Shown piece after piece: positions 10,172 to 45,005 of a DNA stretch of 64,000 nt (the first letter of the stretch is position 1; every line of letters starts with the position of its first letter). Source of the stretch: Halioglobus sp. (lineage in GTDB: Bacteria > Pseudomonadota > Gammaproteobacteria > Pseudomonadales > Halieaceae); the NCBI GenBank assembly GCA_020443425.1, contig JAGRIE010000018.1:1-64000 (forward strand), read 5' to 3'. The translations under genes and the position numbers were made by a program. The notes under the pieces are model-generated. The model did not search any database and had not been told where the DNA came from. It saw only the letters and a program-made list of their open reading frames with translations.

Positions 10172-10336
10172 GGGGCACCTGCTGAGTTACCAAAGGGTGC
10201 ATTATGGCGCTGACACGCGCACGGCGTCAAATGTAAGTCTTTGATTAATAATAAAAATTAAGAATAAAAATACGAAGGATTCGCAATTCCATTTTTATCC
10301 GGGGTGCCGTGAGCGCGCCGCGGCAGGCGGGACGGG

Positions 10337-10747: not shown

Positions 10748-10824
<77 letters not shown>

Positions 10825-33431: not shown

Positions 33432-35363
<1,932 letters not shown>

Positions 35364-35375
35364 GAGGTGTTTCCG

Positions 35376-35383
35376 TTGTTTTT
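35376..35383 (-). promoter_or_regulatory. CA motif (AANAANAA) next to the acs ribosome binding site
   Basis: On the minus strand AAAAACAA is followed by CGGAAACACCTC and the acs ATG. In Pseudomonas, Hfq with Crc binds AANAANAA near start codons of catabolic genes and blocks translation. The motif is short and could be chance; the CrcZ-like RNA gene 5 kb away on the same strand makes it worth noting. Confidence 0.4.
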
Positions 35384-38153: not shown

Positions 38154-38686
38154 CAGGATGCAGTCCTGTCGTGTGGGGCACCCGGTGCGGGGCTGCCCAG
38201 CGGGTGGCGGGTTCTCACCAGCCCTGTCTCGGGGCAGTGTTGGAGCAGTGTCTGCAGTACTTTGCCGCAGGGCAGCCGATAGTGCGGGCCGCAGAGTTCG
38301 CGCAGCGGGTAGAGCACAAAATGGCGGTGCGCCATCTGCGGGTGCGGCACAGTCAAGCGCGGGGTTGAGAGGGTTTCGTCCCCGTACAGCAGCAGGTCGA
38401 GATCCAGTGTGCGCGGGCCCCATTTGATATCGCGGATGCGACCCTGGGCCTGTTCTATGCCTTGCAGTGCGTCCAGCAGTTGCAGTGCGGGCAGGTCTGT
38501 CTGCAACAGCGCCACCGCATTGAGGTAATCAGGCTGTGGCCCCGGTCCCACGGCAGCGCTGCGGTAGACACTGGAGACGGCGTCGAGTCGCGATTGCGGC
38601 AGCGCGGCGAGCGCCGCCACGGCCCGGCCAAGCTGCTCCGCAGGGTGTTGCAGGTTGCTGCCGAGTGCGATGTAAGCCGCTGTCAT
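38153..38686 (-). CDS. folK: 2-amino-4-hydroxy-6-hydroxymethyldihydropteridine pyrophosphokinase
   Basis: FolK transfers pyrophosphate from ATP to the pterin in folate synthesis. The 177-residue protein has AYIALGSNLQHPAEQL at the N-terminus, the pterin-binding VYRSAAVGPGPQPDYLNAV, and RDIKWGPRTLDLDLLLYG with the two magnesium-binding aspartates. Its start overlaps the pcnB stop by four bases, and its stop touches the kinase start. Confidence 0.95.
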   Translation of the reverse strand: MTAAYIALGSNLQHPAEQLGRAVAALAALPQSRLDAVSSVYRSAAVGPGPQPDYLNAVALLQTDLPALQLLDALQGIEQAQGRIRDIKWGPRTLDLDLLLYGDETLSTPRLTVPHPQMAHRHFVLYPLRELCGPHYRLPCGKVLQTLLQHCPETGLVRTRHPLGSPAPGAPHDRTAS

Positions 38687-40035
38687 GGCGCGGGATTGGG
38701 GCGCCGTGTCCTGGTTCGTCTCGGTCGCTTGCGATTGTCGTGCGACGTCGACACCTTTTCCAGGCGCTGGTCTGCCGTGAGGTCCTGGATTTCAGTCCAC
38801 CACTGGCCCAGTCCCCCTGTATCTTCACCGGCCTGCTCGCGCAGCAGCAGGAAATCGTAGGCGGCGCGAAAGCGGCGGTGCTCGATCAGTTCGGCGGCCT
38901 TGCGCCCGGTGCGCCGCTGCAGTCGAAGCTGGAACTCCCAGATCTCCCGCATCGGCTGGCTGAAGCGGCGGGGGATGGAGATGTGATTGACCGCATCCCC
39001 GATAGCGGACTGGGCAGCCGTGTGCATCGCCACCATGGCCGGTTCACCCCGTTCCACCAGACGCGCCTGCTGGGCCTCAACGACTGGCCACAGCAGGGCG
39101 GCGAGGATGAAGGCGGGGGTCACGGGTTTGCCCTGGGCGATACGCTGATCCGTGTTTCCCATTGCCGCCTGCACCAGCGCCAGTGCTCTCGCATCGTCCC
39201 GTATGCAGCGGCTGGTCTCGGGAAACAGGTAGCGCAGCAGGTCGTACTCGAGCAGGTGCTCCAGCGTGCTGGCGGCGTATCCGGCCAGGAACAGCTTGAG
39301 AAACTCATCGAACAATCGCGCGGCGGGTATCTCGCCGAGCAGGTGGGCGCAGCGCGGTATCGCGGCAGCGGTCTGTTGCTCGATGCTGAAATCGAGTTTC
39401 GCGGCGAAGCGCATCACGCGCAACATGCGCACGGGATCTTCGGTATAGCGCTGTTCCGGATCGCCGATAATACACACAGTGCGGTTTTTCAGATCCTGCA
39501 GGCCGTGCACATGGTCGTAGACTTCGAATGTACCCGAGTCATAGTAGAGCGCGTTGACGGTGAGGTCGCGGCGCACCGCATCCTCTTCCAGCGTGCCGTA
39601 GACATTGTCGCGAAGCAGCAGGCCGCTGGCGGACTGTCGCGAGTGATTGCCCCCGGTTTCCGACTGGTCGCCGCCGCTGTCGCCACTATCGTGGTGGCCG
39701 CGAAAGGTGGTGACTTCGATAATCTCGCGCCCGAACCGCACGTGTACGATGCGAAAGCGCCGCCCGATGATACGCGAGTTGCGGAACAGGTCGGTCACTG
39801 CTTCCGGTGTGGCGTCCGTGGCGATGTCAAAATCCTTGGGGTGCCCTCCCAGCAGGAGGTCGCGCACTGCGCCGCCCACGAGATAAGCCTGGTAGCCACT
39901 GCTACGTAAGCGCGACATCACTTTGAGTGCGCCGTCGCTGATGTTTTTGCGGGATATGCAGTGTTCATCCCTGGGAATGATATTCAAGCGAATTAGGGCC
40001 TGTTGCGGTCTACTGACAGGCGCGCAGTCTACCAT
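38683..40035 (-). CDS. pcnB: Poly(A) polymerase I
   Basis: PcnB adds poly(A) tails to RNA and so marks it for decay. The 450-residue protein has the class II nucleotidyltransferase head YLVGGAVRDLLLG with the catalytic aspartates in PKDFDIATDA, the RNA-binding middle (RYTEDPVRMLRVMRFAAKL), and a basic C-terminal tail (RKRPRRTRTRRP). The N-terminal IPRDEHCISRKNIS is typical of PcnB and not of CCA-adding enzymes. It follows cbrB after the gap holding the CrcZ-like RNA gene. Confidence 0.96.
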   Translation of the reverse strand: MVDCAPVSRPQQALIRLNIIPRDEHCISRKNISDGALKVMSRLRSSGYQAYLVGGAVRDLLLGGHPKDFDIATDATPEAVTDLFRNSRIIGRRFRIVHVRFGREIIEVTTFRGHHDSGDSGGDQSETGGNHSRQSASGLLLRDNVYGTLEEDAVRRDLTVNALYYDSGTFEVYDHVHGLQDLKNRTVCIIGDPEQRYTEDPVRMLRVMRFAAKLDFSIEQQTAAAIPRCAHLLGEIPAARLFDEFLKLFLAGYAASTLEHLLEYDLLRYLFPETSRCIRDDARALALVQAAMGNTDQRIAQGKPVTPAFILAALLWPVVEAQQARLVERGEPAMVAMHTAAQSAIGDAVNHISIPRRFSQPMREIWEFQLRLQRRTGRKAAELIEHRRFRAAYDFLLLREQAGEDTGGLGQWWTEIQDLTADQRLEKVSTSHDNRKRPRRTRTRRPNPAP

Positions 40036-40074
40036 ACAAGCGCGGGCTGTGCCGTGTAGTCAGGAAGGGGAAAG

Positions 40075-40374
40075 TGAATGATGGGGAAAGCTGCGCTTTC
40101 CCCATCCAGGTCTCACATCAAGAGTTATTGTTATTTCTGTGCGTTGTTATTTTTATAGCGTGAATACAAACACACATGTATTTGAATGCCTAATATCCGG
40201 AGGGCGTTACCGTGAACACTCTCGAACTGCCACCGACCACATTGGGCAAATGCCCGGGGCCTGACGCAATAAGCAAAGGTGGAAATTGAGGGGAAGTATT
40301 CTTCCCCCATCCAGGTCCATGTCTAACTCTGTTATTTTTATTGTCGTGGCTATTATTTTTATTATTGTGACGCC
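40075..40374 (-). ncRNA. Putative CrcZ-like small RNA (Hfq/Crc decoy)
   Basis: This lies between cbrB and pcnB, where Pseudomonas has crcZ, on the same strand. About 12 bases before its likely start is a sigma54 promoter. The transcript would carry four A-rich clusters (40350-40368, 40329-40344, 40141-40157, 40122-40140), each with two overlapping perfect AANAANAA motifs. They form two modules: two clusters, about ten bases, the 13-base element GACCTGGATGGGG (40305-40317 and 40100-40112), then a hairpin (40290-40307, 7 bp; 40081-40105, 11 bp). No open frame of note is present. CrcZ in Pseudomonas binds Hfq and so lifts Crc-dependent repression when CbrAB is active. The last hairpin lacks a good T-run, so the 3' end is uncertain. 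Confidence 0.7.
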
Positions 40375-40380
40375 TATAAG

Positions 40381-40398
40381 TAAGCACTTCCCGTGCCA
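40381..40398 (-). promoter_or_regulatory. Sigma54 promoter of the CrcZ-like RNA
   Basis: On the minus strand TGGCACGGGAAGTGCT has a perfect -24 element (TGGCACG) and GC exactly ten bases after GG; only the first T of TTGCT differs. Transcription should start near 40373. Confidence 0.8.
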
Positions 40399-40472
40399 AC
40401 TAAAAAATATACTTATAAATCAGATACTTAATGGTTTGGCTTGTTTCGTTTCGTGTTGCAAATCGCATCCAA

Positions 40473-40520
40473 TGTTACCGATCTACTCCCCTTTGTGGTG
40501 TTGGTGTCGGTTTAGGTAAC
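40473..40520. promoter_or_regulatory. Inverted repeat, candidate CbrB enhancer
   Basis: TGTTACC (40473-40479) and GGTAACG (40515-40521) face each other, about 100-147 bases upstream of the expected RNA start, a normal distance for an NtrC-type activator. As I recall, CbrB sites in Pseudomonas are built from TGTTAC/GTAACA halves, usually closer together than here. ACCGA and TCGGT also mirror each other inside the repeat. Confidence 0.5.
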
Positions 40521-40522
40521 GC

Positions 40523-41950
40523 CTATTTTCCATCAATTGCGGTCATTTTGCCCCGCGTCGAGAGGTTGTTCTTGTTTCTGGGGATGCCAAACCGCTGTCG
40601 TCTTTCCCACAGGCATTTGCGGCTGACGCCGAGTTTTTGCGCCAGCTCGGTTTCGCTCATCGAATCCTGGTGCTCCAGCACAAAGCGCTGGAAGTAGTCT
40701 TCCAGTGACAAATCTTCAAGCGGGTCATTGCTGGTATGTGAAGTACTGGCGTGGGACGCGCCCGACCCCTGTTGGCCGCGTATACGATTGATATTGACCA
40801 GTTCCAGATCGATGCCGAGCGCGTCGTTGTCGATCTCCTCGCCGTCAGACAGGATTACCGCCCGTTCAATTGCGTGCTCAAGTTCCCGGACATTGCCGGG
40901 CCACTGGTAGGTGGTGATGGCCTGGATGGCGCGTGGCGACAGTCGCATCATCGGCTTTCCGAGGCGTTCGGTCTGGGTTTGCAACATGCGTTCAGCGAGG
41001 TGCAGTATATCCTTGCCCCGCTCCCGCAGCGGCGGGAGGGAGAGGCGCAGGACGTTGATGCGATAGAACAAATCCTGGCGGAACAAGCCCTCGGCGGACA
41101 GGCTCTGCAGGTTGCGGTGGGTGGCGCAGATCAGCCTGACATTGACCTTGCGCGACTGCACCGAGCCGATGCGGCGTATCTCGCCCTCCTGGATGAAGCG
41201 GAGCAATCGTGCCTGTGCCTCCATCGGCAGCTCGCCGATTTCGTCGAGAAACAGCGTGCCCCCGTCGGCGGCTTCGATCAGGCCCATGCGGCTGGCATGG
41301 GCGCCGGTGAATGCGCCTTTCTCATAACCGAACAACTCGGATTCGATCAGGGTGTCAGGAATGGCGGCGCAGTTTACCGAAATCAGTATTTTGTCTGCCC
41401 GCAGGCTGTTCTGGTGCACGTTGCGGGCGACCAGTTCCTTGCCCGTGCCGGTCTCCCCCAGTACCAGTACGGTGGAGTCGGTGGGGGCCATCCGCTCGAT
41501 GTGTTCAAACAGGGTCCGGATGGCGGGGCAGTTGCCGACAATGCCGGTCGAGGAGTTGGCGGGCGCAGCCGGGGCCGTGCGCTCTTCCGTGCGGCCGGTG
41601 GGGTGGTCGGCGATGATGCGCTGTACCGCACTGACCATATCGCCGTGATCAAACGGTTTGGCGATATAGTCCACCGCGCCCATGCGCATCGAGTCGACCG
41701 CCGAGCGCAGGCTGGCGTAGCTGGTCATGATCAGGACCGGCACGTCGCCGGCCTTGCGGATCAGGTCCGTACCCGGGGCGCCCGGCAGTCTGAGGTCGCT
41801 GATGACCAGGTCAAAATCACTTAAGGTGTGTTCTTTCTCCGCTTCCTGGACCGACCCGGCCTCGCTGATCTCGTAACCATTGCGTTCCAGCAGCCGGCGC
41901 AGGGCCGCCCGGATAACTGATTCATCTTCAACAACGAGGATTTTGTGCAT
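40523..41950 (-). CDS. cbrB: CbrB, sigma54-dependent response regulator
   Basis: CbrB is the NtrC-family activator of carbon-source and amino-acid use in Pseudomonas and the activator of crcZ. The 475-residue protein has a receiver domain (1-120, [21 protein letters not shown] and the acceptor Asp in [10 protein letters not shown]), an AAA+ domain with GETGTGKE and the sigma54-contacting GAFTGA (about 145-380), and a Fis-type HTH ([20 protein letters not shown]) near the end. It lies 79 bases downstream of its kinase gene cbrA. Gene order around it is that of the Pseudomonas cbr locus. Confidence 0.93.
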
Positions 41951-42029: not shown

Positions 42030-45005
42030 CTAGAGTTCAAATAAGCCGTAAGTGGTGCGGGGCAAATACAGGGTGATGCGGGTTCCGGGGTTCTTGCCGC
42101 GTGAGATCGGGCTCGCAATCTGCACTTTGCCATTCATGTCTTCCATGATGCTGAACACCAGCGCCAGCCCCAAACCCGTTCCGGCGCCCGGCTCCTTGGT
42201 GGTGTAGAACGGTTCAAATACCTGGCTCTGCAGTTCCGGCGGGATGCCGCAGCCATTGTCCTCGACGTCGACACGCACCTGGTCACCGATCGTGAGGGAG
42301 GTGATTTCTATCTGCGCGTCCTCTTCATCGCAGGCGTCCCTGGCATTGCCCAGCAGGTTGATGAAGACCTGCAGCAGGCGCTGGCTGTCGGCCAGTACCA
42401 CCACCTCGCGGTCGCAGTGGTTCTGGAACGACACCGGCTTTGCCTCCAGGTCCAGCTCCAGCAAGTGGATGGCCTCGTCCACGCAGTCGGCAAGGTTGGT
42501 CGGTGCCAGCTTGGTTTCAGCGGACTGGGGGCCGGTGTGCGAAAAGTTCATCAGGGATTCCACAATGCGCGTGACCCGCCCGGTCTGCTTGAGGATGTCC
42601 TGCGCCATATAGCGGATCTCCTCGGGGTCGGATTCGTACTCAAGATTCTGTGCCAGGCAGGCGATACCGGTGACCGGGTTGCCAATCTCATGGGCCACCC
42701 CCGCGGCCAGGCGCCCGATGGAGGCCAGGCGTTCGTTGTGCAGCAGCTCTTCCTCCAGCAATTCAAAGTCGGTGATGTCCTCCACCATGATGACGGTGCT
42801 GCTGTTGGAGCCCTCGTCAATGGGTGTTTTATGCAGGACAATCCAGCGCGACGGCCCTTTGTCGACGACCACCTCTGTTTTCAGCGCGGTATCGCTGTCG
42901 CCGTACAGGAAGGTCTCGAGAGTCTCGCCCCAGGGCGGTGTGATGGAACCCAGCAGCGAGCCGAGGACATCCGTGGGCGCGATACCGGTGATCTGCTGCA
43001 TGCTCTGGTTCCACATCAGCAGTTCGCCATCCGAGCCGATGGAGCAGGCGCCGATGGGCAGTTTGTCGAGTGTCTCCCGGTGGTGGCGGCGCAGGTTGTC
43101 GAGGTCGGCGGCGAGACCGGTGAACTGCGGTTGCGCCTGGTCGAGGTTGCGCTCAATCAGGTGGATGTCCTCGGTGTCTGCATGCGCGCCCGGCAGGAAC
43201 GGGATGCGCCGCTCGATGATGCGGTGGGCGACGGCCGGCCCGAGCAGGCCGGACAGGTTGGCCTCGATGCGTGCCCGCAGGCGGCGCAGCGCGTAGGGGC
43301 GGGTTTCGTCGCGGGTAAACTGCAGTTCTTCCAGGGCGCGGTTGACTTCGGTCTCCGCTGTGCGCTGGCCCAGCGAGGGCGCGAGACGCTGGCTGAAATC
43401 GGCTGCGCTGTACACCGACAGGACCTGGCGTGTGGGACGGGCCTGGTCGTCCATCGAACAGATTTCCGCGGCAACGCGCTCCTCCTTGCTGGTCCGGGTC
43501 AGTAGGGAGACCACCACAAACACGGTGGCGTTCAGCAGCAGTGACACCAGTGCCACGGCGGTCCACAATTTCTCGCTGTCGCCGAGCAGCTGCCGGTACA
43601 GGCCGGTGAGCCACAGCGGCTGATCACCGCCCGCCAGCGGCAACAGCATGGAGAAACTCCAGACACCGAGCCCCGCTGCCAGTCCGCACAGCAGTCCGGT
43701 GCGGTTCGCTTTCGGCCAGTAGGGCGTGGCGACGACGCCGGGCAGAAACTGCAGGGTGCCGGTGAACGCGACCAGTGCCAGCTCCGAGAGGCTCTGGCGG
43801 CCGTCGAGGGTTACAAAAAAGATGTATCCGGAAATAATGAGAATGGCGATCAGCGAGCGGCGCAGCCACTTGAGCTGCGTATAGATAGTCTGCTCTCGGT
43901 CGATCTGCAGCGGTCGCAGCGGCAGTATCAAGTGGTTGAGGCACATATTGGCCAGCGCCAGCGTGGTCACGATAATAGTGGCGCTGGCCGCCGACAGGCC
44001 CGCCACGAACGCGGCCGCGCTGAACGGGATGGAGTTCAGTGCCATACCGATCGCCAGTCCGCTGTACTCCATCGGCAGGTCGTGGCCCAGCTTGATACCC
44101 GCCCAGGCCACGGGCAGGATGGGCAGGCTCAGCAGCAACAGGTACAGCGGCAGGCCCCAGGTGGCACTGCGCAGGTCGCGGCTGTCGTTATTTTCGGCAA
44201 AGGCCATATGGAAGATGTGCGGCATGCACACCGCGCCGGCGAAAAAGATCACCAGCATGATGCGCGCGTCGTTGCCCTGGATGGACTGGGTCAGCCGGCC
44301 CGCAATCTGCGGGTTTTGCAGCAGCCACTGCTGGAGGCCGTCAAAGCCGTCAAATATCGAGTAGACCGCCGCCAGCAGTAACACCATCAGGGCCGACAGC
44401 TTCACCAGTGACTCGAACGCGATCGCGGTGACGAGGCCGGTGTTGCGGTACTGCGAGGACACATGGCGGGTGCCGAACAGGATGGAAAACACCGTGATGA
44501 TCACGCAGAAGAACAGTGCCAGGCGGTTGTGTCGCGGGCCGCCGGACGACAGCGCCGCGCCGTCGCCGGCCAGGATGTGGATACTGTCGGCCACAACCTG
44601 GATCTGCAGTGCCAGCAGCGGCAGCAGGGTGATACACATGGCGACAGTGACGGCGGCACCGACCAGCGGGCTGCGAAACCTGAATGTCAGTACATCGGCC
44701 AGTGAGGCGAGCTGGTAGACCCGGCACAGACGCAGCAGGGGAAACAGCAGTAGCGCGGCGACAACGAACATCAGCACCACACCGAGGTAGTAGAGCAGGA
44801 AGTTGTAGCCGTACTGGTAGGCCAGGGCAATGACGCCGTTGCTCGCCATCGCGCCGGCAAACACGCCCAGCGACAGCACATAGACAGCCGGGTGGCGGGT
44901 TATGCGCTCGGGGATGATACCGCGGTCGGCAAGGTGGGCGACTGCAAACAGGCCGGTCAGGTAGGCGATGATGAACAGTAGTATCTGCGCGAGGCTAAAG
45001 CTCAT
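42030..45005 (-). CDS. cbrA: CbrA, transporter-like sensor histidine kinase
   Basis: A 991-residue membrane kinase. Residues 1 to about 500 form a sodium/solute symporter (SLC5)-like domain with about 13 membrane helices; in CbrA this part binds or moves histidine and may signal carbon status. A STAC-like linker, a PAS domain (about 660-770), and the kinase core follow, with the phospho-accepting His772 in GVAHEIGNPVTG, the N box NLLGNARDACDEEDA and the G box VEDNGCGIPP. Its start overlaps the small membrane protein gene by 11 bases. Confidence 0.93.
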   Translation of the reverse strand: MSFSLAQILLFIIAYLTGLFAVAHLADRGIIPERITRHPAVYVLSLGVFAGAMASNGVIALAYQYGYNFLLYYLGVVLMFVVAALLLFPLLRLCRVYQLASLADVLTFRFRSPLVGAAVTVAMCITLLPLLALQIQVVADSIHILAGDGAALSSGGPRHNRLALFFCVIITVFSILFGTRHVSSQYRNTGLVTAIAFESLVKLSALMVLLLAAVYSIFDGFDGLQQWLLQNPQIAGRLTQSIQGNDARIMLVIFFAGAVCMPHIFHMAFAENNDSRDLRSATWGLPLYLLLLSLPILPVAWAGIKLGHDLPMEYSGLAIGMALNSIPFSAAAFVAGLSAASATIIVTTLALANMCLNHLILPLRPLQIDREQTIYTQLKWLRRSLIAILIISGYIFFVTLDGRQSLSELALVAFTGTLQFLPGVVATPYWPKANRTGLLCGLAAGLGVWSFSMLLPLAGGDQPLWLTGLYRQLLGDSEKLWTAVALVSLLLNATVFVVVSLLTRTSKEERVAAEICSMDDQARPTRQVLSVYSAADFSQRLAPSLGQRTAETEVNRALEELQFTRDETRPYALRRLRARIEANLSGLLGPAVAHRIIERRIPFLPGAHADTEDIHLIERNLDQAQPQFTGLAADLDNLRRHHRETLDKLPIGACSIGSDGELLMWNQSMQQITGIAPTDVLGSLLGSITPPWGETLETFLYGDSDTALKTEVVVDKGPSRWIVLHKTPIDEGSNSSTVIMVEDITDFELLEEELLHNERLASIGRLAAGVAHEIGNPVTGIACLAQNLEYESDPEEIRYMAQDILKQTGRVTRIVESLMNFSHTGPQSAETKLAPTNLADCVDEAIHLLELDLEAKPVSFQNHCDREVVVLADSQRLLQVFINLLGNARDACDEEDAQIEITSLTIGDQVRVDVEDNGCGIPPELQSQVFEPFYTTKEPGAGTGLGLALVFSIMEDMNGKVQIASPISRGKNPGTRITLYLPRTTYGLFEL

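Follow-up and report, generated by a model that had tools for sequence, protein, structure and literature searches.

A predicted CrcZ-type small RNA gene of two modules downstream of cbrB in Halioglobus and its relatives

The gap between cbrB and pcnB (40036-40522) in the window, that is, the whole 64,000-nucleotide stretch of Halioglobus sp. contig JAGRIE010000018.1 that was analysed, most likely encodes a CrcZ-type decoy RNA, driven by CbrB and sigma-54, which would titrate Hfq, probably together with Crc. Judged by its sequence, a conserved CrcZ-type RNA gene is real, and its mechanism is proposed by strong analogy. The motifs, the promoter, the synteny, the conservation and the hairpin covariation, together with the presence of hfq and of a crc homologue in the genome, can be read in the DNA itself. 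The original prediction was of a CrcZ-like RNA gene between cbrB and pcnB, and the tests that we applied to the sequence support it. What is new here is the host range, the two-module build and a conserved element.

Results

Gene order and layout of the locus

On the minus strand cbrA and cbrB are followed directly by a gap of 487 bases and then by a gene that we take to be pcnB, the name it had also been given before (Table 1); the position directly downstream of cbrB is the same in relatives. Read along this strand, the gap holds the CbrB-type sites, the sigma-54 promoter, two A-rich clusters, GACCTGGATGGGG with its hairpin, a spacer, and then again two clusters and GACCTGGATGGGG with its hairpin. 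The RNA would start 12 nucleotides after the GC of the sigma-54 site and end near the second hairpin; the start so derived, at about 40372, lies near 40374, where the original prediction had set the limit of the gene. The stretch ahead of module 2 (40157-40213, minus strand) varies in sequence and, by eye, could pair with itself in several relatives.

Table 1. Coordinates of genes and predicted features at the cbrB-pcnB locus
Feature	Position	Strand	Remarks
cbrA	42030..45005	-	transporter-histidine kinase, 991 aa; relatives found
cbrB	40523..41950	-	sigma-54 activator / response regulator, 475 aa; relatives found
CbrB-type subsite CGTTACC (forward)	40515..40521	-	conserved in Halieaceae alignment
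CbrB-type subsite GGTAACA (reverse)	40473..40479	-	seen in Halieaceae alignment
sigma-54 promoter TTGGCACGGGAAGTGCT	40383..40399	-	GG-N10-GC
CrcZ-type small RNA, predicted	40075..40372	-	about 300 nt, two modules; both ends inferred
Module 1, A-rich cluster 1	40353..40366	-	three AANAANAA
Module 1, A-rich cluster 2	40332..40342	-	two AANAANAA
Module 1 element GACCTGGATGGGG	40305..40317	-	repeat search of window
Module 1 hairpin	40289..40308	-	8 bp, outermost pair G-U, loop AATA (script)
Inter-module spacer	40157..40288	-	poorly conserved; without sigma-54 promoter for module 2
Module 2, A-rich cluster 3	40144..40154	-	two AANAANAA
Module 2, A-rich cluster 4	40125..40135	-	two AANAANAA
Module 2 element GACCTGGATGGGG	40100..40112	-	repeat search of window
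Module 2 hairpin	40080..40106	-	9 bp core GGGGAAAGC/GCTTTCCCC, extended GAT/ATC; probable 3' end
pcnB	38683..40035	-	poly(A) polymerase, 450 aa; downstream neighbour; synteny in relatives

Promoter and CbrB-type sites

The promoter scores 23.1, against a mean of -15.2 and a maximum of 9.3 for shuffled best-of-60 scores; because the matrix was trained on the same gaps that it scores, this is no independent test, and the shuffles and the tiles of acs loci control only partly for that training. The published CbrB pattern consists of three subsites of this type, according to the accessible text of PMC6296734. Two of the three can be recognised in the window, the middle one of several relatives being unrecognisable there. 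Neither the promoter nor the two sites had been part of the original prediction.

These features bear on the question of whether the gap is simply a part of the cbrB 3' region or of the pcnB leader, giving rise to no separate RNA. Its elements do share strand and direction with both genes, and read-through into crcZ from the cbrB promoter has been reported in Pseudomonas (accessible text of PMC8871633), but the gap itself contains a conserved sigma-54 promoter preceded by GTTAC/GTAAC sites, and in other families a single gap carries two complete promoter-module units. We consider this explanation very improbable, and a separate CrcZ-type RNA gene is the reading adopted below.

A-rich clusters

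The A-rich Hfq motif AANAANAA occurs nine times on the minus strand, starting at 40366, 40363 and 40360, at 40342 and 40339, at 40154 and 40151, and at 40135 and 40132. Dinucleotide shuffles of the gap contain 0.50 such motifs on average and reached nine in 0/5000 cases; the plus strand of 40036-40522 has none. The four A-rich clusters of the minus strand are thus as first described, except that they hold three, two, two and two motifs rather than two each. When the predicted 300 nt are folded, the motifs are unpaired with a mean probability of 0.78, against 0.42 elsewhere. Among the 57 Halieaceae loci with promoter and element that were folded, the corresponding values are 0.85 and 0.39, the motifs being the more open in 57/57.

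Covariance models

The covariance model R1, for which 28 modules from non-Halieaceae loci were used, matches both modules of the window, at 55.1 and 54.8 bits (E ~1e-7), and over the whole genome nothing beyond these two up to E 1. The original prediction had looked to a covariance search among related genomes, and it had described cluster pair, element and hairpin as occurring twice in the same order; that order is what we see, and a model from other families recovers both copies. The next match in the window, at E 0.74, is a further A-rich stretch, TTAATAATAAAAATTAAGAATAAAAATA, ahead of a tRNA gene at 10748 (10240-10284, plus strand). In 40 loci in which the element scan had found nothing, R1 matches ten times, weakly (E 0.0001-0.085), and the four strongest of these matches fall in the two loci of family f14. 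In each of these two (L154, L155) R1 matches at least twice after cbrB, that is, there are repeated modules despite a drifted element.

The Rfam model of CrcZ (RF01675) aligns positions 280-375 of its 398 with 40375-40277 of the window at 20.5 bits; since this is far under its gathering cut-off of 95 bits, we call the gene CrcZ-type and not a member of RF01675. A search of the same genome for CrcY- or CrcX-like copies gave no second match up to E 0.01. A scan of 194 genomes from the order gave matches at E <= 0.01 in 50, that of the window included, and nine reached the cut-off (six of family f21, three of f2); its filters were stricter, so that weak matches are undercounted, and not every match lies beside cbrB. 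Family f21 is taken to be that of Pseudomonas from its Rfam score (309 bits, L164). Three f2 loci (L327, L328, L329), outside f21, score 101-111 bits. None of 14 named control genomes has a match; 11 of the 20 loci scanned from many families do so at E <= 0.1, with 67, 55 and 39 bits in single loci of f35, f20 and f44. We take these scores to reflect one RNA that has diverged by degrees, and not two unrelated RNAs.

Conservation across the order

Among named genomes the closest CbrB proteins are those of Halieaceae, namely Halioglobus sp. (83%) and Pseudohaliea rubra (77%); NCBI places this family in the Cellvibrionales, the affiliation that had been suspected for the organism. Family f1 is taken to be the Halieaceae, because its members L018 and L209 have exactly the gap sequences of L032 (Halioglobus) and L034 (Pseudohaliea). 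CbrB is found in 113/120 genomes of the family (E <= 1e-100) and in 244/293 drawn from the order, across families f1 to f47 (E <= 1e-110). We read 165 loci, 100 of which were picked from the matches listed with a view to sampling many families. Three proved too short, and in five the gap was identical to that of another locus.

As a joint test we required a sigma-54 site with two or more A-rich clusters in the 75 bases after it. It is passed by 126 of 138 distinct pcnB-linked gaps (Halieaceae 64/73, other labelled families 58/61, other named loci 4/4; the total does not change if the named Pseudohaliea locus is placed outside Halieaceae), and by at least one gap in 24 of the 26 families with a pcnB-linked gap; the original prediction had staked itself on the clusters being conserved in relatives, and they are. 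Dinucleotide-shuffled gaps pass in 0/810 cases and tiles of acs loci in 0/532; of 282 tiles of the window two pass, both overlapping the cbrB-pcnB gap. Distinct loci in which pcnB was not found pass in 8/19 cases. The twelve linked gaps that fail belong to Halieaceae (nine), f7 (two) and f23 (one), and three of the nine carry a weaker TGGCAT variant of the promoter.

In four loci of family f8 (L145, L146, L147, L148) the stretch read after cbrB contains neither pcnB nor a promoter with clusters, and three f8 genomes (G126, G277, G298) carry between two and four matches to the Rfam CrcZ model at other places; CrcZ-like genes have perhaps become unlinked and multiplied in this family.

The kinase and its regulator reach further. 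In a sample of 274 genomes from the class, 29 encode a CbrA at E <= 1e-150; 26 of these belong to other orders, where the matches (L244-L270) are long and show 37-46% identity. In all 19 readable loci of the 20 fetched, 18 of them from other orders, cbrB adjoins cbrA; within these 19 there was no pcnB match, no promoter score of at least 12 with clusters (one reached 9.9, L286) and no R1 match up to E 1. On these searches the CbrAB pair is more widely spread than the linked RNA.

The repeated element and its hairpins

GACCTGGATGGGG occurs in the window only as the two copies of Table 1, 205 bases apart, in agreement with the 13-base direct repeat first noticed there, and the hairpin that had been placed at each copy overlaps it in both cases, with stems of 8 and 9 bp. 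In the whole genome the core ACCTGGRTGGGG has one further match and a reversed control pattern two. Neither hairpin of the window is followed by a clear U-tract, which counts against the proposal.

The element was scanned for in relatives as CTGGATGGGG with at most one mismatch, so that conservation of these letters is partly a matter of selection. It is present in nine families (f1, f4, f11, f24, f30, f31, f32, f45 and f47). At its position family f9 has GACCTCCAGAGGGG in 2/2 loci, and f21 has GCACC with a G-run in 3/5 loci and GCAAC in 2/5. The scan yielded 141 distinct modules with a readable hairpin, and GACCTGG precedes the hairpin in 124 of them, CTGG having belonged to the selection and GAC not. 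All 141 have a stem of at least 7 pairs after the element, as against 1.7% in same-letter shuffles; pairs were counted by script, since variation in loop length misaligned the 3' arm in alignment A1. Stem positions 5, 7, 8 and 9 show several pair types (A-U, G-C and C-G, for example), which indicates that the helix is kept by compensating changes.

A sequence this constant ahead of a stable hairpin looks like a pairing seed, and the RNA might then be a base-pairing small RNA whose clusters serve only to anchor it to the distal face of Hfq while the conserved GACCUGG pairs with target mRNAs. We think this unlikely: the predicted folds leave GACCTGG unpaired only in part, with a mean of 0.48 over 88 copies and values of 0.16-0.48 for the window's module 1, and the Pseudomonas-like f21 and many other families have the clusters without it. 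Still harder to credit is translation of a short peptide from ATGGACCTGGATGGGG in module 1. In Halieaceae the first module often has TATGGACCTGG, but the frame varies from 10 to 113 codons among the Halieaceae rows listed (40 of 48 rows, one being a chance f8 match), and module 2 and other families have GAGACC or a similar sequence with no ATG. A decoy for RsmA/CsrA acting through GGA was set aside, 20 of the 141 modules having GGG instead. The reading that we retain is that of a decoy for Hfq.

Origin of the two modules

Among 75 distinct Halieaceae gaps the element scan finds two elements in 43, one in 25 and none in 7; in the small-genome genus g12 there is either a single module or a pair of clusters with no recognised element. 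Of the Halieaceae gaps with two elements, 41 could be scored, and in none of them does a second sigma-54 promoter reach 12 (the best scores 7.0); L235, among those scored, has a doubtful second element. Two further gaps could not be scored, having no cluster before the second element. The sequence TAGGCAT ahead of module 2 was considered as a promoter relic, for which the promoter score gives no support.

Elsewhere two sigma-54 promoters occur in one gap: in f47 (6/6 loci), in f45 (1/1), in one of two f30 loci and in Dasania. GTTAC/GTAAC sites precede each promoter in the five two-promoter loci inspected. As each module has its own promoter in these families, the two-module build may represent tandem RNA genes that became one when the second promoter was lost. 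Hairpins of Halieaceae module 1, when aligned with those of f47 and Dasania, score a mean of 15.1 against module 1 and 11.9 against module 2, and those of module 2 score 16.1 against module 2 and 12.8 against module 1, in a comparison of at most 20 modules per group that uses pairwise scores of short sequences only. Since like modules align best across families, these scores suggest that the duplication predates the split and that the second promoter was lost in Halieaceae.

Three loci from other families (L153 of f12, L178 of f38 and L181 of f39) each have two sigma-54 promoters after cbrB and lack the GACCTGG element; such tandem arrangements of RNA genes may have more than one origin.

Hfq, Crc and a candidate target

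Both partner genes that had been proposed as a check on the prediction have counterparts in the genome. Hfq (L001) is nearly that of P. aeruginosa, with 7 differences over 73 aligned residues, and the residues that we take to form its distal face are intact. There are two exonuclease-III-like proteins. One (L237) is nearer to an ordinary exonuclease, with 300 bits to 2jc5 and 265 to Crc; the other (L238) has P. aeruginosa Crc as its best structure match, with 218 bits against 168 for exonuclease, and 109 of 251 aligned residues are identical. The gene of this Crc homologue lies between what are presumably pyrE and rph, the order that we assume for the crc neighbourhood of P. aeruginosa.

Contact and dimer residues were taken from the published Hfq/Crc/RNA complex (accessible text of PMC6422490). 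The contacts K135, K139, R140, R141, E142 and E193 are kept in L238. The protein differs at the dimer residues R229, R230, F231 and R233 and at the contacts R138 and R196, and the Crc half of the mechanism is consequently less sure than the Hfq half.

The one candidate considered as a conserved target of Hfq/Crc was acs (33432-35363), AAAAACAA lying at 35383 on the minus strand, 20 bases before its start codon. It was rejected, which counts against the proposal: the motif occurs within 60 bases in 2 of 30 Halieaceae acs leaders, that of the window included, and in 3 of 73 pcnB leaders; mononucleotide shuffles of acs leaders lead one to expect 1.6%.

Discussion

In proposing a mechanism for the predicted RNA we follow what is known of CrcZ, with which Pseudomonas relieves its carbon-source preference. 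When good carbon sources are exhausted, CbrA-CbrB would act through the GTTAC/GTAAC sites to switch on the sigma-54 promoter, giving a transcript of about 300 nt. Its four unpaired A-rich clusters would engage Hfq at its distal face, probably along with Crc, and thereby withdraw Hfq/Crc from catabolic mRNA leaders. One module, that is, two clusters, GACCTGGATGGGG and a G-rich hairpin, would constitute one decoy unit, and two units per RNA would offer more Hfq sites per transcript. The modules themselves would derive from tandem RNA genes, each with a promoter, of which the second is gone in Halieaceae.

The structural features of this locus have close analogues in Pseudomonas, where CrcZ (RF01675, with CrcY and CrcX) likewise lies directly after cbrB and carries several AANAANAA clusters ahead of a G-rich hairpin. 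The original prediction had stated that Pseudomonas CrcZ occupies the gap between cbrB and pcnB, and so it does in the five f21 loci, the RNA standing before pcnB as in the window; L164, of Pseudomonas type, also shares a sigma-54 promoter with GTTAC/GTAAC sites. The RNA of the window differs in being predicted shorter, in being built from two modules of clusters, element and hairpin, and in having GACCTGGATGGGG in the place of the f21 sequences described above. CrcZ and CrcY of Azotobacter vinelandii, by their description in abstracts, are CbrB-controlled decoys of Hfq/Crc as proposed here, though they come from the same family as Pseudomonas. Hfq-anchored class II small RNAs such as ChiX also have A-rich motifs for the distal face of Hfq, but they are not known to be controlled by CbrB and sigma-54 and have fewer motifs.

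CbrAB has been stated to be exclusive to the Pseudomonadaceae, in the accessible text of a review (PMC8871633) and of a research paper (PMC6296734), and a metatranscriptome paper reports cbrAB transcripts in seawater. The sequences presented here contradict that exclusivity. It had been suspected that both the modular build and such an RNA outside Pseudomonas would be new, and within the accessible portions of the literature on CrcZ, CbrB, Hfq and Crc we found no report of a CrcZ-type RNA from a host outside the Pseudomonadaceae.

A broader and more tentative idea, which we hold to be possible but doubtful, is that CbrAB-driven decoy RNAs are ancestral and order-wide, and that the GACCUGG[A/G]UGGGG hairpin of nine families was added to them as a separate binding site, either for a protein or as a seed. 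If so, the RNA would be bifunctional, the second function having been gained in one branch, and the dose would be set by the copy number of modules, for which nature would supply a series of one module, two modules fused behind one promoter, and two tandem promoter-module genes.

CrcZ-type genes linked to cbrB occur in 24 of the 26 readable families of the GTDB order, the marine Halieaceae included, and the choice of carbon sources in these bacteria can thereby be tested against a known model. Fused and tandem forms together make up a natural series in which the number of decoy sites can be set against the strength of repression.
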